Assembly (NCBI GenBank): GCA_009777315.1
Contig: WRMD01000003.1
Location: 1-64,000, forward strand
From: Candidatus Saccharimonadota bacterium
GTDB taxonomy: Bacteria > Patescibacteriota > Saccharimonadia > Saccharimonadales > Saccharimonadaceae
DNA: 64,000 nucleotides
Direction of reading: 5' to 3'
Position numbers and translations under genes: made by a program. Below, one piece after another: positions 1,261-51,582 of this stretch (within the stretch, counting starts at the first letter, position 1; the number at the start of each line of letters is the position of its first letter). Under the pieces are notes generated by a model. It made no database searches. It saw nothing but the letters and a program-made list of their open reading frames with translations, and was not told the origin of the DNA.

Positions 1261-1656
1261 TTATGCCAAGTCTATCGGCGCTACTCGAATCTTCTCTGCC
1301 ACCCCCGCCATCTCTTCCGCCGTCATCTCTACTTTTCGCCCATGCTCCCAGGTCTCGTCTAACGGCATCAAATGCACGTGAGCATGCGGCACATCCGTCC
1401 CAATCACTTTCACCAGCGTCCGAGCCCCAAACGCTCGCTCCATCCCTGCTGCGACCTTCTTCACTGCTCGCCAGAGCGCTACGTAGTCCTCGTCTGCCAG
1501 CTCATAAAATTTGTCCACTTGCACCTTCGGCACCACTAGCACATGCCCCGCCGTCTCCGGCATAATATCCAAGAACGCCACTACCGCCTCGTCCTCGTAC
1601 ACCTTATACGCCGGGATTTCCCCCTTAATAATTTTCGTAAAAACACTCTCTTCCAT
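1261..1656 (-). CDS. HIT family nucleotide hydrolase/transferase
   Basis: A 131-residue protein with a complete histidine triad near the C-terminus (HAHVHLMP, the HxHxHxxP pattern). The family fold is visible in FTKIIKGEIPAYKVYED and in AFLDIMPETAGHVLVVPK. HIT proteins hydrolyse nucleotide phosphoramidates and related adenylated compounds in the cytoplasm. The frame is open further upstream, but the ATG at 1656 begins the standard HIT N-terminus (MEESVFTKII), so the upstream extension is non-coding. It is a stand-alone gene, and the region behind its start holds a decayed repeat cassette. Confidence 0.93.
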   Translation of the reverse strand: MEESVFTKIIKGEIPAYKVYEDEAVVAFLDIMPETAGHVLVVPKVQVDKFYELADEDYVALWRAVKKVAAGMERAFGARTLVKVIGTDVPHAHVHLMPLDETWEHGRKVEMTAEEMAGVAEKIRVAPIDLA

Positions 1657-1756
1657 ACCCCCTAGTCTACCACACTCTCCACCCCCTAGCCCGAGGTCAG
1701 GCTCCGCCTGCCTCGGGCGTCCTGTCCGAGCCTGCAAGGCGAGTAGGAGGAGTATC

Positions 1757-1825
1757 TGTAGACACAGTGTCCAGCAAGGAAAGGAAGAAAACCTTGGTTT
1801 TCTTAGCAGGAGACAGTGGCGAAGG
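1757..1825 (-). repeat. Decayed C-terminal cassette remnant (K)
   Basis: Read on the minus strand, the segment starts with the family start sequence CCTTCGCCACTGTC and ends about 70 bases later with CTGTGTCTACA, a degraded copy of the family end sequence. The coding interior is almost completely gone. It shares CTGGACxCTGTGTCTAC with the other decayed copy at 16671-16814, which suggests that both decayed by a similar internal deletion. The rest of 1660-1872 shows no gene. Confidence 0.6.
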
Positions 1826-1872
1826 CAAATCAACCCCACTTAGTGTGGGGCCATTCGCCAATCTTCGGTGAA

Positions 1873-2307
1873 TCACGTCAAGTCATCCCTCCCTCTTAAA
1901 GAAATCAGCCAGCGTTGCCCGCAGTGATATTTTCGCAGCTCCATCAGCAAGCCTTCCTCTTCAAAACGCACCCGAATCGCTGAAGCGCCCAGGTTACCCA
2001 AGCTGTCCTTGTACAATGCTTCGGCCAATGCTTTCGATGTTTCGCCTGTTCCGCTATCCGCGCCGCCGCAGAAGTCGCTCCTGCTGTACCGCATAAAAGC
2101 GCCATTCTTCGCTAACACGAAGCCAATGGTACCCTTATACTCCTCGTGCCCCTTCCATGACGGATCGTACGGCGACAATGCCGGCACAGCCTGCGCAATC
2201 CGCGCAACCAAAGCGTCTACCTCCGGCGAGCGCGCCAAAGTATCCACTTCCGGACCACGGATGCTGCCGTTCCTGCTGTCAATTAGATTCCAAAACTTAG
2301 CACTCAC
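1873..2307 (-). CDS. Hypothetical protein, about 144 aa
   Basis: Not recognised. The frame is open to a TTG at 2355, but a GTG at 2307 is preceded by a good Shine-Dalgarno sequence (GGAGG, 8 nt away), and a TATACT -10 box lies at about 2370. I therefore place the start at 2307. The protein is soluble and mixed in charge, with no transmembrane segment. Visible stretches include KFWNLIDSRNGSIRGPEVD and YKGTIGFVLAKNGAFMRYSR, and it has two cysteines (DFCGG, YHCGQ). It is monocistronic and its promoter abuts repeat cassette A1. Confidence 0.6.
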   Translation of the reverse strand: MSAKFWNLIDSRNGSIRGPEVDTLARSPEVDALVARIAQAVPALSPYDPSWKGHEEYKGTIGFVLAKNGAFMRYSRSDFCGGADSGTGETSKALAEALYKDSLGNLGASAIRVRFEEEGLLMELRKYHCGQRWLISLRGRDDLT

Positions 2308-2387: not shown

Positions 2388-2604
2388 CCCCACCCCCTAC
2401 GGGTAGACACAGCGGAGGGAGTGGCCATAGCGCTTTATCTCGTACGCAATATTAGGAGTCCAGCCAGCACGGATAAGTTCAGCATTTACGTCTGCAAAGG
2501 CGACCATTGCGCCAGATAGTAGTGAAGACCCCCACCACAGTGCTCGAGCTTGGTCATATAGCCCCTGCGGCGCACGATACAACCCCATCGAGACAGTGGC
2601 GAAG
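2388..2604 (-). repeat. Silent FISUMP C-terminal cassette A1
   Basis: An open frame runs from the start sequence CTTCGCCACTGTC (FATV) to LRCVYP-stop followed by the G-rich tail. The conserved core reads LWWGSSLLSG. There is no ribosome binding site and no signal sequence. It faces cassette A2 head to head across 457 bp, the longest centre of any pair here. Confidence 0.85.
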
Positions 2605-2880
2605 ATTCTTATGCTTGCAAGTTGGTGGTTTAGTGGTTGTAAGATTCTTTTTGCAGTTTTCCGCCCCTGAGCCCTCAGAGACAAAACGCTACAAGGGTTA
2701 TGCTTGTACTGATTTTGTGGATTTGATAAGATTCTCTAGGGTTTTGGGCTGATTTGTGGAGTGCTAGGAGTGTTATCCACCCTCCTGCAATGGACTTCAT
2801 AAATCTAATCCTAGTTGAACTTTAAGAAGTCCAGTGTTTCTGCTAGTCGAGGGCTTACTCTCGATAGAAAGGAGGTGCGT

Positions 2881-2943
2881 ATGCTTAAACTACGTTTGTT
2901 GTTTGGCCTACTAGAAGTAACCGTAGATTTTCGTAAGAAATAG
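2881..2943 (+). CDS. 20-residue small ORF between facing cassettes A1 and A2
   Basis: ATG is preceded by a perfect Shine-Dalgarno (AAAGGAGG, 5 nt away) and encodes MLKLRLLFGLLEVTVDFRKK. Right after the stop codon lies a strong stem-loop (GTTAAGTGTACC / GGTACACTTAAC, 2943-2970). The peptide is a short amphipathic or hydrophobic stretch with a basic end. No family is recognised. A tiny ORF with an excellent ribosome binding site and an immediate hairpin could be a small protein, a leader peptide or a relic. The rest of 2605-3061 shows nothing else I can identify. Confidence 0.5.
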   Translation: MLKLRLLFGLLEVTVDFRKK

Positions 2944-3061
2944 TTAAGTGTACCTTGCGGTACACTTAACACCCGTAGAGGTTTACTAGGTAAGCCTCGT
3001 TAGTATCATTCTATAACAAGCCAACACATAAAAGCAAGCTTTTTGACTGATCAAAAGCGCG

Positions 3062-3267
3062 CCTTCGCCACTGTCTCAGGAGCATTCTTCTACCCGGCTA
3101 TTGGTGCATATTGGCAGTCTTCACATGGGCATTGGTGGACCTCTTCACTAGTAGGGGCAATAACTCCGTCCTATATATTCTTGAGCAATACAGCTATCCA
3201 ACCCAACACCAGCGACGATAGAAATCTTGGCTATTCCCTCCGCTGTGTCTACCCGTAGGGGGTGGGG
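3062..3267 (+). repeat. Silent FISUMP C-terminal cassette A2
   Basis: Runs from CCTTCGCCACTGTC (FATV) to LRCVYP-stop and the tail GGGGGTGGGG. The core reads HWWTSSLVGA and the end reads GYSLRCVYP. Its open frame has no credible start signal. The structured element at 3278-3414 begins 10 bases downstream. Confidence 0.87.
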
Positions 3268-3277
3268 AGAAGATTAT

Positions 3278-3414
3278 GCGAAAGGCGTGCGAGATACAGT
3301 TTCATTCGGAACGTCCCGGAAGGCGGCAGCCTGAGGGGGAAGAAAACCCTCCCCGTGGCGACGGGCGAGGGTTATTCTGTGTCCGAATGAAACTGTGCTC
3401 GGCGAGCCTTTCGC
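3278..3414 (-). ncRNA. Dispersed structured RNA element, copy 1
   Basis: This segment is bounded by a long imperfect inverted repeat (GCGAAAGGC ... GCCTTTCGC). On the minus strand it reads TTCATTCGGACACAG, then a hairpin with loop TCGCCA (stem CCCG/CGGG extended by AACCCT/AGGGTT), then a hairpin AGGC-TGCC-GCCT, then GGGACGTTCC. The same loops and linkers recur at 38421-38563 and 42380-42519 with different but still paired stems. That covariation argues for a functional RNA, or for a mobile element with selected structure. The type is unknown. Confidence 0.6.
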
Positions 3415-8971: not shown

Positions 8972-9183
8972 CCCCACTCCCTACGGGTAGACACAGCGGA
9001 GGGAGTTACCAGCCCGTTTATGATTGCTATCTGTACCAGGATTATTACTTGCGTTATTTGTGTTTGTGCGCGCCGCATTTGAGGCCGAGGCCAACGACGA
9101 AGCATGCTGAAACAACGCTGATGACTGGCTGCCTAGGCCAGGATTTAATGGACTAAAGTTACCTATGGAGACAGTGGCGAAGG
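8972..9183 (-). repeat. Silent FISUMP C-terminal cassette B1
   Basis: Complete frame from FATV to LRCVYP-stop. The core reads LFQHASSLASASNA, so the usual WW pair is lost. Its end tail has one substitution (CCCCACTCCC instead of CCCCACCCCC). It faces B2 head to head across 45 bp containing TTGTATAAAACTT. Confidence 0.85.
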
Positions 9184-9228
9184 GAAGTTGTATAAAACTT
9201 CGACCCTCTCTGGAGGCCACCGAATCCT

Positions 9229-9431
9229 CCTTCGCCACTGTCTCGGCAGGTAGCTTTCAGTCAGGCGTTCGTAATCAAGCCAGCCTCATGCAATCGTGGA
9301 CTGGCTCACCTACATCATCTAGTAGTGCCAACCGTATAAATATATCCTCCGAGAATGCACAGCCATCTCAAGGTGCCAACAACAAAGCCTATGGTAACTC
9401 CCTTCGCTGTGTCTATCCGTAGGGGGTGGGG
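9229..9431 (+). repeat. Silent FISUMP C-terminal cassette B2
   Basis: Complete frame. The core reads SWTGSPTSSSSANR, again without the WW pair. Its end sequence differs at two positions (CTTCGCTGTGTCTATCCG). tRNA-Val(GAC) lies 64 bp downstream. Confidence 0.85.
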
Positions 9432-9494
9432 AGAAGAGCTTGGCCGATGGTCAGGGTAGGTATTTTGCGCGTTTCGTGGTAGTATTATAGAGGC

Positions 9495-9571
9495 GGGCGA
9501 TTAGCTCAGTTGGCTAGAGCGTGTCTTTGACGTAGACAAGGTCATAGGTTCGAGTCCTATATCGCCCACCA
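9495..9571 (+). tRNA. tRNA-Val (anticodon GAC)
   Basis: Full cloverleaf: acceptor GGGCGAT/ATCGCCC, D-arm GCTC/GAGC, anticodon stem TGTCT/AGACA with loop TTGACGT (anticodon GAC), T-arm ATAGG-TTCGAGT-CCTAT, encoded CCA. Confidence 0.97.
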
Positions 9572-9589
9572 CGGTTTTGTCTCTGCTAG

Positions 9590-9618
9590 ACTCCTATTTC
9601 GGGAGTTTTTCTTTTTGC
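9590..9618 (+). terminator. Terminator after tRNA-Val(GAC)
   Basis: Short hairpin ACTCC/GGAGT followed by TTTTCTTTTT. Confidence 0.7.
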
Positions 9619-9632
9619 AGATATCATCTCCT

Positions 9633-9844
9633 CCCCACCCCCTACGGGTAGACACAGCGGAGGGCATAACCAGCGTCTCTAGGTGGATTGCTACCGAATC
9701 CTGAACGAATTCTAGTAGCGTTCACATCTGAAAGATTAGTTCCAGCTCCCGAAAGGACAGACGATACCCACCAAGTTGCCGTTGTGGAATAACTAATGTT
9801 TGTGCTAATTACATGAATGACACCAGCCGTGACAGTGGCGAAGG
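9633..9844 (-). repeat. Silent FISUMP C-terminal cassette C1
   Basis: Complete frame. The core reads TWWVSSVLSGAG and the end reads GYALRCVYP. Faces C2 head to head; the 29-bp centre contains the palindromic stretch GACTTTTATAAAGTC. Confidence 0.87.
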
Positions 9845-9873
9845 AGGGGAGACTTTTATAAAGTCCCAACTTC

Positions 9874-10085
9874 CCTTCGCCACTGTCTCAGGTGGAGACT
9901 TTCTGTTTACTACCACTCTTGGGTTGCGATCTCAGTCTGAAGGCCCACACTGGTATTCATCGTCTATTGCTTCGGTAGCTAATGCTGCCAACATCTGGAT
10001 GTCAGGCATTGGCTCTTTTCCAGATGCGATTGCAAACAAGTACCGTGGTTACTCCCTCCGCTGTGTCTACCCGTAGGGGGTGGGG
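9874..10085 (+). repeat. Silent FISUMP C-terminal cassette C2
   Basis: Complete frame. The core reads HWYSSSIASVANAA and the end reads GYSLRCVYP followed by GGGGGTGGGG. Partner of C1. Confidence 0.87.
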
Positions 10086-16317: not shown

Positions 16318-16532
16318 CCCCACCCCCTACGGGTAGACACAGCGGAGGGAGAAGCCGTAGGACTTACCAACATTACTGTGCGCGCCCGGTGGATACAGAG
16401 TGTTGGGGGCTACGCTCATGTGAGGTGGATTTGTCGCTGAATCCATGGAGATGACCCACCATTGTGCAGCTGCAGACTGAGCATATAAGCCTCTATTCGG
16501 AACGAAGTACCCATTCGAGACAGTGGCGAAGG
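16318..16532 (-). repeat. Silent FISUMP C-terminal cassette D1
   Basis: Complete frame. The core reads QWWVISMDSATN and the end reads GFSLRCVYP. Its partner position on the right is occupied by a decayed copy (16671-16814). A strong promoter and hairpin lie between the two. Confidence 0.87.
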
Positions 16533-16572
16533 AGGGCGATGAGAACTTCAAGTTGCCCCAAAATAAGCATAA

Positions 16573-16655
16573 TCTCTTGACTTTTCATCCCGCTTGTGCT
16601 ATACTGTACAATAGAGATAATTATGTCCCAAGCCTCCTACCCCTGTTACAACAGG
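16573..16655 (+). promoter_or_regulatory. Strong promoter plus hairpin in the centre of cassette pair D
   Basis: TTGACT at 16575-16580 and TATACT 17 bp later form a near-consensus promoter (TTGACTTTTCATCCCGCTTG). About 35 bases downstream comes CCCCTGT-TACA-ACAGGGG followed by TCGTTCTTATT, a terminator-like hairpin. The same promoter-plus-hairpin module lies in the centre of pair F (35516-35605). The promoter alone recurs at 60949-60977 on the minus strand, in front of a small RNA. Confidence 0.75.
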
Positions 16656-16670
16656 GGTCGTTCTTATTCT

Positions 16671-16814
16671 CTTCGCCACCACCTCATCGAGTAATAGTTC
16701 GTCAAAAAGGTCAGGATTCACTCCTGCCTTTTTGACTTTACCTAAAAGGGAAGAGGAAGAGAAACCGCTAGGTGTCTCTTAGCTGGACGCTGTGTCTACC
16801 CGTAGGGGGTGGGG
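16671..16814 (+). repeat. Decayed FISUMP cassette remnant D2
   Basis: Starts with CTTCGCCAC and ends with the intact end sequence (CTGTGTCTACCCGTAGG and GGGTGGGG), but is only about 144 bp long and has lost the coding interior. It contains a hairpin GTCAAAAAGG...CCTTTTTGAC (about 16699-16737). Confidence 0.65.
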
Positions 16815-26430: not shown

Positions 26431-26642
26431 CCCCACCCCCTACGGGTAGACACAGCGGAGGGAGAGACCAAGATAGCTTGCTGTAGCGTCACGTGTACCG
26501 GGGTTTATGGTGTTGTGGAGCAGGCGTGTATATGAAGCAACCGTTCCAGAGGCGACAGAGGGAACGAACCAGTGAGCTCGTTCGTTTAGGTACTCTAGGC
26601 CATTACCAGGACGTAGCATCCCGTCCGTGACAGTGGCGAAGG
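26431..26642 (-). repeat. Silent FISUMP C-terminal cassette E1
   Basis: Complete frame. The core reads HWFVPSVASGTVAS and the end reads GLSLRCVYP. Faces E2 across a 28-bp centre with GACTTTATAAAGTC. The 26330-26430 stretch before it has a TTATCAACA motif and nothing else identifiable. Confidence 0.87.
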
Positions 26643-26670
26643 AAAGCCAGGACTTTATAAAGTCGCTCCT

Positions 26671-26882
26671 CCTTCGCCACTGTCACGTCGGCATGGCTTC
26701 AGCCCTTTTCTGGCGTCCGTGAGCAGTCCATGCAATCATATTGGTGGGATGCGTCACTAAGCACAGCCGACAACGCTTCCCTCACGAATGTGTTTAACGC
26801 GCAATCTGGACCGGGCCAACACGCCAACGGCCAAAGACATTTTGCCTTCTCCCTCCGCTGTGTCTACCCGTAGGGGGTGGGG
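26671..26882 (+). repeat. Silent FISUMP C-terminal cassette E2
   Basis: Complete frame. The core reads YWWDASLSTADNAS and the end reads FAFSLRCVYP. Partner of E1. The 206 bp from here to the AEC gene show no gene or clear structure. Confidence 0.87.
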
Positions 26883-29590: not shown

Positions 29591-31046
29591 AGTTTTTGCA
29601 TTGGAGGAGCATGTGCTCGATGGGGGCGAAGCGGTCGGTGTAGACGCGGCCGATAGCGCGCTGGAGCGGCTGGATGCTGCTGGTCTCGTCGAAGGTGAGG
29701 GCGCGGCGAGAGAAGATAAGTTCGATGTTGGTGATGGTATGATCGCCTGGGAATTGTTGGACTATGTAGCGGTTGGGTAGATGGCGAGCGTAAATGCCGT
29801 AGACGGCATCAAAGAGGCGGCTGCAATTGCCGGCTTGAGCGCCGATGAGGTTGACGACGATGACGCCTTGGTCGTCGAGTAGGTGGTTGAGGCGATCGCC
29901 GAATTCGCGGGTGACGAACTGCCAGGGCATGGCGATGTCTTTGGAGACGTCAACCATGATGAAGTCGTATTGCTTGGTGTCGGCTTTACTCCGGACGAAG
30001 CTGCGGGCGTCTTCGCCGTAGATATTAATGTTATCGTGTTGGACAAAGCCGAAGTGTTTTTCGGCGATGGTCTGGAGCTTGGGGTCGATTTCGACGACAT
30101 CGATGGTGGAATCGGGGTATTGTCTGGCGAAGTAGTCAGGGAGATTGAAAGCGCCGCCACCCAAAATAAGGATGCGGGGGGGGGCTTCGATGTCGGACAT
30201 GCTGCTATGGAAGACTTCAGCGACCCGATGTTGATACCAAAAGACGAGCTCGCCGGAGCCGTCGGTGAAGACGGCGGACTGGATGCCGTGCGGGCCACTG
30301 AGAAGGGCGGTGATGTCGCGATCTTCCCAGGTGGTGGAGACGACTAAGTAGCGGGCGGTGGCGGTGTCGATGGTTATAGTATCGGAATCGCTGGAGCGCC
30401 AGACGAGGAAGCCGGCGACAACAACGAGGGCGATGGAGAAAACGAGGCGAACTTCCCAGAGGTCTTTAGTGACGAGCAGCCAGCTAATGCCGGCTGAGAG
30501 GGCGACGAGCAAGGCAAGCGTGACGTCGCCGCCGATGAGGCCAAAGAGGACAAAACCAGTAAGGAAAGTGCCGAGGATGCTACCGATGGCGTTCATGGCG
30601 GAGAGGTTGGCGACTGAACTGCCGGAAGTTTCGGTGGAGGTGATGGCCATTTTGGCGAGATAGGGGCTGACCATGCCGAGGATGAAGCTGGGTAGGGCGA
30701 AGAGGAGGAGGGCGGCGGTAAGGCCTTGCCAGCGGGCGTCTTTGAAGATAGCGACGGAAAGGTCAATGATGAGGCTTCCGGCCATAAGGACGAAGACGAT
30801 GCCGGCGCTTGCTGCGAGGAGGAGCCAGACGATGTCGAGAGGATTGTTGCGCTGGTCGGCGACGCGACCGCCATACCAGTAGCCTAACGCAAGGGCAGCC
30901 ATGATGACGCCGATGACGCTAGTCCAAACGAAGATGGAAGCGCCAATAGTGGGGGCGAGGAGGCGGGCGGCAACTAGCTCGAAAATCATTAGGACGAAGC
31001 CGGCGGTAAACGCGACGATTTTGTAGGCTAGCCCCTTATTCTTCAT
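29589..31046 (-). CDS. Membrane-fused spermidine-synthase-like methyltransferase-fold protein
   Basis: 485 residues. The N-terminal half has 6-7 transmembrane helices (VAFTAGFVLMIFELVAARLL; VWTSVIGVIMAALALGYWYG). The C-terminal half is a spermidine synthase/SAM-dependent fold with RILILGGGAFNLPDYFARQY, STIDVVEIDPKLQTIAEKHF and DDQGVIVVNLIGAQAGNCSR. This fused type is widespread, and aminopropyl transfer is not proven for it. TATACT lies 6 nt before the ATG, so the mRNA is leaderless. Confidence 0.88.
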   Translation of the reverse strand: MKNKGLAYKIVAFTAGFVLMIFELVAARLLAPTIGASIFVWTSVIGVIMAALALGYWYGGRVADQRNNPLDIVWLLLAASAGIVFVLMAGSLIIDLSVAIFKDARWQGLTAALLLFALPSFILGMVSPYLAKMAITSTETSGSSVANLSAMNAIGSILGTFLTGFVLFGLIGGDVTLALLVALSAGISWLLVTKDLWEVRLVFSIALVVVAGFLVWRSSDSDTITIDTATARYLVVSTTWEDRDITALLSGPHGIQSAVFTDGSGELVFWYQHRVAEVFHSSMSDIEAPPRILILGGGAFNLPDYFARQYPDSTIDVVEIDPKLQTIAEKHFGFVQHDNINIYGEDARSFVRSKADTKQYDFIMVDVSKDIAMPWQFVTREFGDRLNHLLDDQGVIVVNLIGAQAGNCSRLFDAVYGIYARHLPNRYIVQQFPGDHTITNIELIFSRRALTFDETSSIQPLQRAIGRVYTDRFAPIEHMLLQCKN

Positions 31047-32337: not shown

Positions 32338-32787
32338 ATGACGGTTTTTGTGGTGCTGGCTATCATAGTAGCGATTATGGTTTTTGCGCACCGGCATTCA
32401 GGACCGGCGATGCTGGCAGTGATTGCCGGTGGGTATGTACATCAGACTTTTGGTGATTGGCTGACGGAGACGGTGATGAAAAATGTCGATGGGCTGGCGC
32501 AAGATATCGTGTCGAGCGTGATCTTCTTGATACTGGTGGCGGGCGTGCCTTTGCTGCTTTATTTTAAGTCGAAATCGGGACGGGTGGGGCTGATACATCT
32601 GGTGCAGATTGTGATATTTGCCGCGGTGCTGGTGCTTTTGGCGGCGCCGGTAGCCGGGCAGTGGGTGACATTTGATGCGTTGACGCAGGAGATCGTGGGG
32701 TGGGTGAATGCAAACATCCAATTCGTGGTAATAGCGGGTGTTGTGAGCGCCTACTACGATATTTTCTTTGCGACAGCGGCGGACTAA
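32338..32787 (+). CDS. Hypothetical four-helix membrane protein
   Basis: 149 residues, four hydrophobic segments (VFVVLAIIVAIMVFA; GLAQDIVSSVIFLILVAGVPLL; LVQIVIFAAVLVLLAAPVAG; IQFVVIAGVVSAYYDIFFA). This is the size and pattern of a small CvpA-like or structural membrane protein, but no family is recognised. The short gap of 12 nt to the next gene suggests co-transcription with it. Confidence 0.7.
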   Translation: MTVFVVLAIIVAIMVFAHRHSGPAMLAVIAGGYVHQTFGDWLTETVMKNVDGLAQDIVSSVIFLILVAGVPLLLYFKSKSGRVGLIHLVQIVIFAAVLVLLAAPVAGQWVTFDALTQEIVGWVNANIQFVVIAGVVSAYYDIFFATAAD

Positions 32788-35285: not shown

Positions 35286-35503
35286 CCCCACCCCCTACGG
35301 GTAGACACAGCGGAGGGAGAAGCCCTCCCTCCTAGATGAAGCATCTGTGCCAAAAAAGATTTGGGATGCACTGCTACCACGTAAGCTCGTAAAGGCCGAC
35401 TGAATCCCCGAGAGCACTGAAGAGGTGTACCAAAAGCTACGATCGTTTCGAGTATATTGCCCCTGGGATGGGAAGAAATAATCGCTCGAGACAGTGGCGA
35501 AGG
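35286..35503 (-). repeat. Silent FISUMP C-terminal cassette F1
   Basis: Complete frame. The core reads FWYTSSVLSGIQSA and the end reads GFSLRCVYP. Faces F2 across a 103-bp centre that holds a promoter and hairpin. Confidence 0.87.
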
Positions 35504-35515
35504 AGGATTTCTATT

Positions 35516-35605
35516 GACTTTTCATTTCGCTTGTGCTATACTGTAGAGTAGAGAGAACTATGTTCTAATCCTCCCACCCCTGTTATAACAGGGGTCGTTC
35601 TTATT
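35516..35605 (+). promoter_or_regulatory. Strong promoter plus hairpin in the centre of cassette pair F
   Basis: TTGACT, 17 bp, TATACT (TTGACTTTTCATTTCGCTTG), then about 35 bp downstream CCCCTGTTATAACAGGGG followed by TCGTTCTTATT. Nearly identical to the centre of pair D. Transcription would run toward cassette F2 but meets the hairpin just before the cassette start sequence. Confidence 0.75.
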
Positions 35606-35606
35606 T

Positions 35607-35818
35607 CCTTCGCCACTGTTTCGGGCGGGTGGTTTCATCCTCCGGGAGGGGCATCGAGTATGTCTATGTTGTTGGTGTTTCATGCTTCTTCTTTGAATGT
35701 GCCTCCTGCTCCGTCCTCCATATGGTTGCGTACAATTACGGAAGTTCTGCCTGGCACACATGAAGGCATAACATCAAGTAGCTATCTACTCCGCTGTGTC
35801 TACCCGTAGGGGGTGGGG
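35607..35818 (+). repeat. Silent FISUMP C-terminal cassette F2
   Basis: Complete frame, but the most diverged interior: the core reads LLVFHASSLNVPPA. The end is YLLRCVYP with the normal tail. Confidence 0.83.
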
Positions 35819-38420: not shown

Positions 38421-38563
38421 CCTAAAACCCCCTCATCAAGTTCGGCTCATTCGGACACAGAATCGTCTACCTCTGTCGCCACAGAGGTATCCGTTCTTCC
38501 CCCTCGGCTTGCCAGCCTGCGGGACGTTCCTCATGATTCCGAATCTTGCTACGGGGGTTTTAG
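38421..38563 (+). ncRNA. Dispersed structured RNA element, copy 2
   Basis: Outer stem CCTAAAACCCCC / GGGGGTTTTAG, then ATTCGGACACAG, hairpin TACCTCTG-TCGC-CACAGAGGTA, TTCCCCCTC, hairpin GGCT-TGCC-AGCC and GGGACGTTCC. Loops match the copies at 3278-3414 and 42380-42519 while the outer and inner stems have different sequences that still pair. The 95 bases after it are C-rich and hold nothing identifiable. Confidence 0.6.
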
Positions 38564-38659: not shown

Positions 38660-38871
38660 CCCCACCCCCTACGGGTAGACACAGCGGAGGGAGAGACCAT
38701 ACCGTTTAAAGTCGCTGCCGCCAGGGCCGCTAGACGTTAAGCTAGTAATTATGGAGCCTCCCGATATGTTTGATTGGAGAGAAGAGTTCCACTGATCGAT
38801 GCGTGTGGATTGGTAGGTTGAACCACTATCAGCCGCGGGACCGAAGCGACCCGACGAGACAGTGGCGAAGG
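38660..38871 (-). repeat. Silent FISUMP C-terminal cassette G1
   Basis: Complete frame. The core reads QWNSSLQSNISGG and the end reads GLSLRCVYP. Faces G2 across a 59-bp centre with two TTTATAAAG palindromes, homologous (inverted) to the sequence between the long surface gene and cassette I. Confidence 0.87.
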
Positions 38872-38930
38872 AAAGCCGGAACTTTATAAAGCCAGCGATA
38901 TAACAGAGGTAGGAAACTTTATAAAGTTTT

Positions 38931-39142
38931 CCTTCGCCACTGTCGTTATGGGAATCTTTGATACAACTAGTGGCGGGCTAAGAGACCAGTCCCTGTTTGT
39001 ATGGTGGAGCAGTTCGTCCGTAGTATCCGCCATACATGCTGGTGGGGTGAATATGATGTCAACATCTGCCATAAACATCAGCTCGACACAGCAGAAACAA
39101 CATGGTTTTACCTTCCGCTGTGTCTACCCGTAGGGGGTGGGG
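38931..39142 (+). repeat. Silent FISUMP C-terminal cassette G2
   Basis: Complete frame. The core reads VWWSSSSVVSAIHA and the end reads GFTFRCVYP (one variant residue, F for L). Partner of G1. Confidence 0.87.
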
Positions 39143-42379: not shown

Positions 42380-42519
42380 GCGAAAGGCTCGCCGAGCACA
42401 GAATTTCATTCGGACACAGCATCATTTTAATCCGTCGCCACGGACTAAAATGTGCTTCTACCTCGGCTTGCCAAGCTCCGGGACGTTCCGAATGAAACTG
42501 TATCTCGCACGCCTTTCGC
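42380..42519 (+). ncRNA. Dispersed structured RNA element, copy 3
   Basis: Outer stem GCGAAAGGC.../...GCCTTTCGC, TTCATTCGGACACAG, hairpin CATTTTA-TCCG-TCGCCA-CGGA-TAAAATG, ACCTC, hairpin GCTT-GCC-AAGC, GGGACGTTCCGAATGAA. Best preserved copy. It ends 46 bp before cassette H; copy 1 also sits beside a cassette. Confidence 0.62.
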
Positions 42520-42565: not shown

Positions 42566-42781
42566 CCTTCGCCACTGTCGGATCGGCTATCTTGCATAAT
42601 CAAGGCCTCACAGGGCTTCATGTAATGTCAGAGCGATCAATATGGTGGACGTCATCTAATGTATCAACTATATGGCCCGGCTATTCGTGGATCAGTCCTA
42701 CATTGACAGACCTGGCACGTTCCGATCATGGCAAATTCAGTGGTCTAGCCCTCCGCTGTGTCTACCCGTAGGGGGTGGGGA
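42566..42781 (+). repeat. Silent FISUMP C-terminal cassette H (unpaired)
   Basis: Complete frame. The core reads IWWTSSNVSTIWPG and the end reads GLALRCVYP with the full tail. There is no facing partner; the position of the partner is taken by the structured element. Confidence 0.87.
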
Positions 42782-48049: not shown

Positions 48050-49944
48050 ATGAAACAGCTTAACTCTAATAATACCTCCCCCCACCCAACTGGGGGGGGG
48101 GTCCTTCTAAGCTTGGTTTAGCTAGATACTCTACTAATAACAAACACTCCACCAAACTCCCATCATACAAACATACTACCAACTCCCCCAAAGGAACAAT
48201 CCACCAGTATAACAAGAAGTATAAGCATAATACCTCCATACCTACACTCTCCTCCAACCTCCTCACCAAATCCCTCCAGCCTACTAAGATACTAACTGGC
48301 CTAGTAATACTATCAGTCTTTACCACCCTAGCGGCTGGCATCGCCAGCCGCTTAGTCCCCTCATACGCGAGCCCTGCAGAACTCGGAGTAGCTTTTGGTG
48401 CCACGGTCGACTTCAGCCTAACTATGACCGTAGGGGACGCCTTTAGTACCTACAACTGCCCAGCCTCCGGCGGAGCCGGAGGCAGCCTGAACCTAGGCAG
48501 TGTCGCACCTAACGGCAATCTCTACTATGCCTGCGTTAACGTCAACGTCACTACCGACAGCACCCTAGGCTATACACTCTCGATGCAGGGAGACAGCACT
48601 GGACTATACAATAGTGCAGCTAGTGCTACGATAGCTAGAATGCCAGGCTCTATAGCATCTCCTTCTAGTACAGTCCTAGCCCAGAACAACACCTGGGGCT
48701 TCTGTATACCTGGTGATACGATGCAGGGTATAGCTAATGGCTTTAACACAGGCCCTACAGCCTGTGGTGGTACTAATGGTAACACAGCTAGTGCGATAGG
48801 CTTTGCCGGAGTACCTGTAGGTAAGACCCTAATCAAGTCCGTAGAGACCCTACCTACTACCGACACCCAGCAGAACACTCCAGTTAGGTTTGGGGTTCGT
48901 CCTACTGGAGCTACTGCAGCTGGTACCTACTCCTCCACCATTACCTTTACTGCTAGCATCAATGAAGCCCCTATAGTCTTTATGCAGACCTTCACTACTG
49001 CAGAGTGTAACATGCTTGCAGTAGGAGACATCATCACCCTACCTGATGCTAGAGACAATACACAGTACCGTATCAAAAAGATGCCCGACAACAAGTGCTG
49101 GATGATGGATAATCTGGCTTATACTGGTGGTGGGGATAATACCTATGGGGATGTGGTGCCGGCCTTCAGTGGCAGCACTCCCACTACATCCAGTACTGGT
49201 GTCCTGATTGAACACCCAGGCGGTGGTGACTGGCCAGTAGGTGGCAGTAACGCTAACCGACAAACTGTTCGTCAGTTCGCTAACAACAGCAGTGCCGGCT
49301 TTAATAACACGTCCTGTCTACCAGATACTCCAACCGGCACTGGTGTTATGCAATCTATCTGTGGCGACCAGGTGCTCTACAACTTCTGCGCAGCTATGGG
49401 GCTAGACGATTCTACCACTCCTACTTGTAGTGCAGTTTCTAACACAACCACCGGTACCAACATGGCATCTACCGGTGTGGTCGGTGCAACAGGAAGCGGC
49501 ATAGGTGGCGAGAGCCTTGGTTCCGGCGGCACTTCCATTTGCCCTGCTGGCTGGAGGATACCTGTAGGACGGGTCGGCGCCAGCAATGACAGCAACAATG
49601 AATGGGCTATACTCAGTGGAGCATTCAATACTGGCGGGACAAACTTAGCCCCTAATACTTCAACTGATGCTGGCTTCATGGGTTACTGGCAGCCGGCTGG
49701 TACATCAGTAGGTTCGGGTGGTATCCAGCTTGGTGGCGGGGCCTTTGGTACAGTATCAGCCGGCAGCGTCACTAGTGCGGCGGGCGATCTCAACGGTCAG
49801 TCCTCGTACGCGTACTGGTGGACATCCTCCTTAAGCTCTGCTACCAACGCTTGGGACACGGCCGTGAACAGCACGAACGTCAACCCCGGCACGAACGGCA
49901 ACAATAAGGCCGCCGGATTCACTGTCCGATGTGTTTATCCTTAG
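48050..49944 (+). CDS. FISUMP-domain surface protein, switched off by a 10-G frameshift
   Basis: Not a single frame in this sequence. ATG 48050 (GAGGTG 8 nt upstream) begins MKQLNSNNTSPHPTGGG and hits TAG at 48119. The adjacent frame is open without a stop from 48073 to 49944 but has no ATG, GTG or TTG before 48424. One extra G (or two fewer) in the run at 48092-48101 joins them into a 630-631 aa protein. Its parts: basic N-terminus of about 80 residues, hydrophobic signal helix (TKILTGLVILSVFTTLAAGI) with a likely cleavage site in YASPA, a beta-rich module like the proteins at 57-59 kb, and a C-terminal FISUMP domain (DARDNTQYRIKKMPDNKCWM; CPAGWRIPVGRV; YWWTSSLSSATNAW; GFTVRCVYP). The last 65 residues correspond to the silent cassettes. 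Codons are C-rich, unlike neighbours. A predictor using ATG 48424 would lose the signal sequence. Confidence 0.85.
48092..48101 (+). repeat. Poly-G run (10 G), candidate phase-variation switch
   Basis: Ten consecutive G follow ACCTCCCCCCACCCAACT, 42 bases after the only plausible start codon of the surface gene. Length changes would move the gene in or out of frame. Confidence 0.8.
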
Positions 49945-50060: not shown

Positions 50061-50269
50061 CCTTCGCCACTGTCACATCGGATGCGTTCAATGCTTCCTT
50101 TGGTCTATGGGGTCAATCTTTAGTTTCTACCTGGTACACTTCTTCGCTCTTGTCGGCAACACGAACAACGTTCGCACATTTAGCACCTACATTCATGAGA
50201 GCCGGAACTCATGATGATGTCAGAGCTTTTGGCGAATCCCTCCGCTGTGTCTACCCGTAGGGGGTGGGG
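50061..50269 (+). repeat. Silent FISUMP C-terminal cassette I
   Basis: Complete frame in the same orientation as, and directly behind, the long surface gene. The core reads TWYTSSLLSATRTT and the end reads GESLRCVYP. Close placement after the full-length gene makes it an obvious donor candidate. Confidence 0.87.
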
Positions 50270-50344: not shown

Positions 50345-51395
50345 CAACTTCGGAGAATACAAAAAACTTGGTGAGCCGGATAAACTAAGGAAGGTTGAGA
50401 ACTGGCGGGTCGGTATTGGTCTGCAACAAATTGACGGGCTGACGCCATCTAAGCAACTGATTGAGCTTGCGAAAGACAACATTGAGGGCAAGATTTCGAT
50501 TGATGAAGCAACAGAACGAATCGCCCAGTATTACAAGAAGAACCCGGCTCAAACTCCAATAGAGAGAGGCGAGCAGGAAGCCGATGAAGTTTCTTCTCGC
50601 ATCACTAGGCTGCTGAGTAGCAATACTTTCGCTCTTAGTCCGGCCGAACTGGTGTCAATTCACAAATACCTGTTCAATGGTGTGCTGAGCGACGAAATCG
50701 CCGGCAAAATTCGCGACTACGACATTAGCAAGGACGAGCCCATATTGAACGGCTATACTGTGAGTTACGGTCGAGCAGATAGTATCCAAGAAACGCTGGA
50801 TTATGACTTCAGTCGGGAGAAAGAGTTTAGTTTTAAGGGTTTGACGCAGCAGGAGAAAGTCGAACATATCATGATGTTTATGTCTGGCGTTTGGCAGATT
50901 CATCCGTTTGCTGAAGGGAATACTCGTACTATAGCCGTGTTTGTTATTAAGTACCTTCGAACGTTGGGGTTCAAGGCGAATAACGAGTTGTTTGATGAAA
51001 ACTCTGTTTACTTCCGCAATGCTCTTGTCCGGGCGAACTACAATAATCTTGAAAAGGGTGTATATGAGAATACGGAGTATTTACGTATGTTCTTCGGTAA
51101 CTTGTTGCTAGGCGAGAAGAATAGGTTGCGTAACGGAGACATGCAAATTGACTCAGAAACTACCCAGAAAACTACCCAGAAAACTACCCAGAAAGTCTTG
51201 GATGTTTTAGTGAATAATCCATCAGCTACTCGCAAAGAAATGGCGGAGATTATAGGACTAACTGAAGATGGGGTGAAGTGGAATCTTAACAAGCTACGTG
51301 AAGAAGGTAAGATTAGGCGCATCGGCCCGGATAATGGCGGGCACTGGGAAGTTGTGGAAGCGGGCGGCGCTTTTCTCCCCACCCCCTACGGGTAG
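50331..51395 (+). CDS. Fic family protein with C-terminal winged helix
   Basis: 354 residues. The N-terminal helical part is followed by the Fic core: LSPAELVSIHKYLFNGVLSD and the catalytic motif HPFAEGNTRTIAVFVIKYLR (HPFxxGN-x-R). A triplicated TTQK (TTQKTTQKTTQK) precedes a winged helix (LDVLVNNPSATRKEMAEIIG, TEDGVKWNLNKLREEGKIRR). Fic enzymes AMPylate or otherwise modify target hydroxyls. The last residues (FLPTPYG) and the stop codon are contributed by the end repeat of cassette J. GTG start coupled to the small leader ORF. Confidence 0.9.
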   Translation: MSQSDNFGEYKKLGEPDKLRKVENWRVGIGLQQIDGLTPSKQLIELAKDNIEGKISIDEATERIAQYYKKNPAQTPIERGEQEADEVSSRITRLLSSNTFALSPAELVSIHKYLFNGVLSDEIAGKIRDYDISKDEPILNGYTVSYGRADSIQETLDYDFSREKEFSFKGLTQQEKVEHIMMFMSGVWQIHPFAEGNTRTIAVFVIKYLRTLGFKANNELFDENSVYFRNALVRANYNNLEKGVYENTEYLRMFFGNLLLGEKNRLRNGDMQIDSETTQKTTQKTTQKVLDVLVNNPSATRKEMAEIIGLTEDGVKWNLNKLREEGKIRRIGPDNGGHWEVVEAGGAFLPTPYG

Positions 51396-51582
51396 ACACA
51401 GCGGAGGGAAAAGCCTGCAGGTTTGCCGACGTTGGCTGCGCTATGGGCTATGAAGGTTTCGGTTAAATATAGATAGGGTGCTGTGGCGGTCGATAGCAGA
51501 GATGAGTTCCACCAATGTGCTTCGTTGCTGGGTTGAGACAGAGTGCTGGTAGTAAACCAGCCGGTCGAGACAGTGGCGAAGG
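51377..51582 (-). repeat. Silent FISUMP C-terminal cassette J
   Basis: Complete frame. The core reads HWWNSSLLSTATAP and the end reads GFSLRCVYP. Its end repeat overlaps the final 19 bases of the fic gene. Cassettes I and J point toward each other (tail to tail), the opposite of the usual pairs, with fic between them. Confidence 0.87.

Follow-up and report, generated by a model that had tools for sequence, protein, structure and literature searches.

The window analysed here is a 64,000-nt stretch of contig WRMD01000003.1 of assembly GCA_009777315.1, corresponding to C3:1-64000 of the genome hereafter termed G000. The assembly comprises 834,365 bases in 30 contigs and is 87% complete, and the relatives of G000 by protein similarity are mostly Candidatus Saccharibacteria. 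Along the window lie short silent coding cassettes, each running from a start repeat (S) to an end repeat (E) and mostly joined head to head in units of the order E'-cassette'-S'-centre-S-cassette-E. The features of the window are as follows.

2388-3267: unit A, with E' (2388-2421), cassette, S' (2592-2605), a 456-bp centre, S (3062-3075), cassette and E (3234-3267)
3281-3414, + strand: structured-RNA repeat R1, 13 bp outside E of unit A
8972-9431: unit B, with E' (8972-9005), cassette, S' (9170-9183), a 45-bp centre, S (9229-9242), cassette and E (9398-9431)
9495-9571, + strand: tRNA-Val(GAC), a neighbour between units B and C and outside both
9633-10085: unit C, with E' (9633-9666), cassette, S' (9831-9844), a 29-bp centre with a TTTTATAAAG palindrome, S (9874-9887), cassette and E (10052-10085)
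16318-16532, - strand: left arm of unit D, a silent cassette with E' (16318-16351) and S' (16519-16532)
16533-16814, + strand: centre and right arm of unit D, with a sigma70-like promoter (TTGACT...TATACT) from 16577 and a recurrent non-cassette arm with terminator-like hairpins and an E core (16790-16814)
26431-26882: unit E, two head-to-head cassettes and a 28-bp centre
35286-35818: unit F, two head-to-head cassettes and a 103-bp centre with a promoter and a CCCCTGTTATAACAGGGG hairpin
38424-38558, - strand: structured-RNA repeat R1, outside E' of unit G
38660-39142: unit G, two head-to-head cassettes and a 59-bp centre with two ACTTTATAAAG palindromes
42380-42516, - strand: structured-RNA repeat R1, 50 bp ahead of the lone S at 42566
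42566-42780, + strand: single silent cassette, S to E
48424-49944, + strand: gene for a FISUMP protein; its 3' end (49741-49944) forms a variable region of the DGR on contig C6, and a silent cassette follows from 50061
50061-50269, + strand: single silent cassette, S to E, preceded by a centre-like palindrome stretch and directly 3' of the DGR-target FISUMP gene
51377-51582, - strand: single silent cassette, S to E

The 25-bp core of the end repeat, CTGTGTCTACCCGTAGGGGGTGGGG, occurs 17 times in the window where shuffled sequences give an expectation of 0, and the start motif CCTTCGCCACTGTCTC occurs 19 times at three or fewer mismatches (0.61 expected). Genome-wide there are 155 copies of E, which with its flanks reads CCCTCCGCTGTGTCTACCCGTAGGGGGTGGGGAG and loses information sharply past AG; S reads CCTTCGCCACTGTC and lies ~145–180 bp from E. 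In all seven window pairs the E ends face outward, with arms that agree at 30–35 of 36 positions, and the S arms agree at 13–14 of 14 positions in six of the seven. An earlier note on this DNA had described starts facing inward and end repeats facing outward, with outer inverted repeats of about 34 bp and inner ones of 14 bp. This arrangement holds in the window (E measures ~34–36 bp and S 14 bp) and recurs across G000 in 46 head-to-head units, counted at less than 1.1 kb apart, 40 of which have a centre of 300 bp or less. Units B and C are adjacent, as the note had said, with tRNA-Val(GAC) standing alone in the 201-bp gap between them, and the cruciform extrusion that it thought possible has a real basis in hairpin potential, since the folding energy of a strand of unit C is -105.9 kcal/mol (z -11.3). 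The right arm of unit D, which had been taken for a decayed cassette arm, instead belongs to a recurrent set of non-cassette arms, found in other units as well, that consist of S or a remnant of it, terminator-like hairpins and the E core. Remnants of such arms, in which S is followed by a AAGAAAACCAAGGTTTTCTT-like hairpin with no intact E, lie at 1650-1960 (- strand) of the window and at C2:18922. GTAGGGGGTGGGGAGGA is a candidate G4-forming oligonucleotide.

The paired geometry is pronounced at short range. Among close neighbours (300 bp or less, n = 48), 40 are head-to-head, 5 tandem and 3 tail-to-tail (binomial P ~3e-17). Beyond 300 bp the head-to-head excess is gone, and the few long 'units' around ordinary small genes may therefore be coincidence. 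The small genes held in the long centres C5:5377-6232, C8:14317-15300 and C4:21282-21843 (L035, L045 and L033) encode a YefM/ParE-type toxin-antitoxin pair, an ImmA/IrrE-type peptidase and a CdiA_C-domain protein.

Read toward E, the cassettes translate as SFATVS...GxSLRCVYP followed by a stop, the last ~65 residues of a FISUMP/C-type-lectin-like domain. Genome-wide, 130 of 130 S-to-E segments are open to this last stop, a count taken without selecting on openness, compared with 9.6% of shuffled cassette interiors; the S-E spacing is divisible by three in 133 of 137 cases. The interiors vary in length, are saturated at synonymous sites and have a mean amino-acid identity of 36%. Only in two cassette pairs do they have any 16-nt word in common, which makes segmental conversion unlikely. 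The FATV and LRCVYP codons show almost no synonymous change, with near-zero entropy at the synonymous positions of S and E, and S and E are thus conserved as DNA.

Among the 155 copies of E, the sole long open reading frame (ORF) to end in S, a cassette and an intact E is C16:4404-7124 (- strand), which encodes 906 aa and whose C-terminus aligns with the cassettes. Its hydrophobic N-terminal stretch, judged by eye, suggests that the protein is probably secreted; as a whole it matches no Pfam or NCBIfam family. The only other long cassette-type ORF, a DGR-targeted paralogue on contig C17, carries a degenerate E, and apart from this paralogue every cassette frame outside the C16 gene is without an N-terminal part. 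Fib_succ_major/FISUMP matches over the cassette region were obtained for the C17 paralogue and for the window gene at 48424-49944. A degenerate E follows the stop of L059:11812-15477 (- strand; ~1,220 aa), whose protein has three FISUMP domains and is a DGR target related to the expression gene. In all, silent versions of one surface-protein end take up more than 25 kb of the 834-kb genome.

Breaks in the assembly fall inside repeats, with overlaps of up to 127 bp, and we used them to read what had been duplicated. Three cassettes recur as exact copies that extend from S to E and have a different centre and flank: C10:22368-22576 recurs from the right end of C7 (where the match starts inside S) to the left end of C11 (where it stops 1 nt past E), C26:6823-7042 recurs at the end of C24 and the start of C26, and C14:13268-13482 recurs at the start of C27 and the end of C21. 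C1:33092-33315 and C3:26848-27071 match at 99% over E and 190 bp of its outside flank while their cassettes differ, and C7/C24 and C6/C14 are similar cases. The exchanged piece is thus often the cassette and not the unit. One unit, C27:3237-3796, has both arms recurring, at the end of C15 and the start of C21, with different flanks; from these contig ends a second copy of the whole unit, E to E, appears to exist, and no contig end from the S side of that copy was seen. Donors match 0–26 nt of the expression gene sequence 5' of S, a ragged edge of the kind that would be expected of homologous exchange.

G000 encodes RecA. Neither a Y1 transposase nor a serine recombinase was found in the genome, and of its two tyrosine recombinases one is XerC/D-like, with a housekeeping look, and the other lies beside a replication-type gene (both judged by eye). 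The earlier note had proposed looking for target duplications at the unit boundaries; there are none in 45 units, with no excess over shuffled flanks and no symmetry past E. For other transposase genes, those of the DDE type included, the search covered the E'-E intervals, and none of these contains one. The presence of RecA, the absence of Y1 and serine enzymes and of target duplications, and the S-to-E copies together lead us to prefer homologous exchange through S and E.

The centres fall into a few families: very short ones (9–12 bp), stretches of ACTTTATAAAGT palindromes (24 genome-wide, 19 of them in units), a promoter-plus-hairpin module (TTGACT-N17-TATACT...CCCCTGTTNNAACAGGGG) and long centres. 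The sequence TTGACTTT-N11-GTGCTATAMT, present at 76 places in G000 including 16577 and 35514 in the window, looks like a strong promoter consensus of the organism, and about 16 of the 76 copies have the same short leader and CCCCTGTTNNAACAGGGG hairpin near S. Because such a promoter would be general to the organism, only the repeated module of promoter and hairpin is special. R1, a repeat of ~136 nt with compensatory change in 25 of 31 pairs, is a new-looking structured RNA with no Rfam family match. It occurs at 41 places in G000, 25 of them within 100 bp outside E and in the same orientation (29 within 103 bp), a placement, defined by position and strand, that less than 1% of the genome would satisfy; five further copies lie ahead of a lone S. 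R1 was also found in 12 of 100 other genomes of the family, where E was not found, with up to 11 copies in other genera. E-type ends were found in none of the other 393 family genomes, making G000 the sole carrier among 394, nor in the viral contigs searched. When the tRNA-Val/thrS locus was compared in 14 relatives for an empty site, tRNA and thrS were arranged differently there.

G000 has two DGRs by the adenine test, at C6:30249-32669 (L086) and C8:16190-18400 (L085). In the C6 element, the copy at 30249-30479 differs from the template at 32440-32669 at 22 positions, all 22 of them template adenines; in the C8 element, 17 of 18 differences fall at template adenines. The C6 enzyme matches the solved reverse transcriptase 8ub7, which we take to be the Bordetella phage DGR enzyme, and the element targets FISUMP proteins, including the C17 paralogue and the window gene at 48424-49944, over the very stretch that the cassettes cover. 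Differences among the cassettes are not confined to adenines as they are in the two DGRs, and no DGR template was found for the cassettes of G000 (the highest interior A content is 30%). Their hypervariable columns have an excess of NNY codons: four-fold third positions are 70% pyrimidine there versus 51% elsewhere (z 12.6, amino acids matched). The stretches read of a sister-genus genome, G157 (L099-L106), contain at least 29 silent FISUMP cassettes, nearly constant in length and with conserved ends of their own, in mixed orientation (12 tandem, 5 head-to-head, 5 tail-to-tail). In these cassettes the first two positions of 14 codons are randomised and the third is for the most part a fixed C or T, and this NNC/NNT pattern is the mark of DGR action on AAC and AAT; no template was found within 16 kb around the G157 reverse transcriptase. 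With the DGR signature in G157 and the pyrimidine trace in G000, we infer that DGR-made variants are the probable ancestors of the cassettes of G000, which would have drifted thereafter.

The units are, we consider with reasonable though far from full confidence, paired head-to-head silent donors for the variable C-terminal ~65 residues of the protein encoded at C16:4404-7124. S and E would serve as short DNA handles of common sequence: those of a donor would recombine with those of the expression gene or of another donor, and the cassette would be swapped whole, because only S and E are homologous. Such exchange would be homologous recombination of the RecA type and would switch the expressed protein. 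Inverted pairing would let one S'-centre-S block serve two cassettes, E' and E would let a whole unit exchange with another, and units would spread mainly in this way and not through a transposase. Several observations count against the donor reading. Copy-and-keep gene conversion would predict a donor copy of the expressed cassette, and the cassette now in the C16 gene has no donor copy and no common word longer than 15 nt in the 87% complete assembly; this fits reciprocal exchange, a donor that the assembly lacks or a site at which switching is rare. S alone, at 14 bp, is short for RecA exchange. The whole-unit copy (C27 vs C15/C21) and the sharp boundary of E also fit a mobile element, and exchange alone leaves the head-to-head geometry unexplained, since G157 has no such bias.

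The geometry might instead be functionless, the pairs being local inverted duplications made by template switching at S palindromes and later altered by cassette replacement. Minimal centres, with S' and S 9–12 bp apart, runs of tandem cassettes spaced by 13 bp (C13) and the G157 cassettes, which lack a head-to-head bias, are what such an origin could leave. We hold this account to be doubtful, if still a serious one, in view of how extreme and genome-wide the bias is (40 of 48 close neighbours); moreover, the centres belong to few recurrent families with promoters or palindromes, so that the units seem to have been copied as such. Inversion between E' and E by a site-specific recombinase, as in a shufflon, could in principle change the expressed end, given inverted E repeats around two alternative C-termini and two tyrosine recombinases in the genome. 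This we regard as highly improbable: with the starts on the inner side of each pair and the ends on the outer side, no inversion brings a start up to a fixed N-terminus; the units adjoin no gene usable as an expression site; and the recombinases are the XerC/D-like enzyme and the one beside a replication-type gene, with no serine recombinase.

Closest to the earlier note is a reading of the units as MITE-like non-autonomous elements, with E as terminal inverted repeats, a transposase acting in trans and the cassettes as cargo. The unit structure does recur, with sharp, identical ends at many intergenic places in many copies; centre families are conserved, R1 lies just outside ~29 E ends, and the inferred second copy of C27:3237-3796 has different flanks. 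Of the note's mobile-element proposal, the unit structure stands. The rest does not fare as well, because target duplications are absent from 45 units, the genome has neither Y1 transposase nor serine recombinase, the E-E intervals contain no transposase and hence no autonomous partner with the same ends (these intervals being what the search for DDE genes covered), and cassettes move singly, from S to E. We think it unlikely that these elements are MITE-like, and mobility of the units as transposons is similarly improbable. The pairs look more like a store of spare parts that recombination moves around than like a demonstrated jumping element.

As donors for one gene, the cassettes recall the pilE/pilS system of Neisseria, where numerous promoterless C-terminal donors, conserved over short stretches at their ends, serve one expression gene, the locus has a G-rich motif nearby and exchange is of the RecA type. 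Both systems have a single expression gene and many C-terminal donors with short conserved ends. The pilS donors, however, lie in a few tandem loci, share interior homology and are used in segmental conversion, whereas here ~130 donors are dispersed and mostly head-to-head; because their interiors have next to nothing in common, a cassette can move only as a whole. Silent cassettes and one expression site are likewise described for vlsE/vls of Borrelia, in contiguous arrays with ~90% identity to the expression gene (PMC11499132); G4 DNA has been proposed for vlsE switching (PMC3585125). The cassettes of G000 are alike in being silent and having one expression site, and differ in their 36% mean amino-acid identity, dispersal and inverted pairing. 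They resemble FISUMP/C-type-lectin DGR targets in covering exactly the variable region of G000's own targets and in their NNY excess, but unlike DGR variable regions they have no matching template repeat, are saturated at synonymous sites and vary in length. An R64-type shufflon similarly holds alternative C-termini in inverted segments, but the units here have the opposite polarity and no fixed N-terminus next to them. MITEs and REPINs are likewise small, dispersed, intergenic and inverted at their ends; the units differ from them in having no target duplication, no Y1 (RAYT) transposase and a coding content that is in frame.

Our literature search found no report of such cassettes in Saccharibacteria, and their dispersed, paired geometry is unlike the arrays known elsewhere. 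Tentatively, and with more doubt than conviction, we suggest that DGR output has here been turned into a genome-wide library, in which ~130 archived variable regions, held in two-donor inverted units spreading between genes, would supply a single surface receptor; together with its conserved centre and the structured RNA beside it, the unit would then be a new kind of element spread by recombination. Retroelement mutagenesis and silent-donor exchange co-occur on the same protein domain, which offers a testable link between two routes to diversity. Saccharibacteria live on other bacteria (PMC10633639, PMC12206443), and a large repertoire of receptors or adhesins would therefore bear on the finding or switching of hosts.
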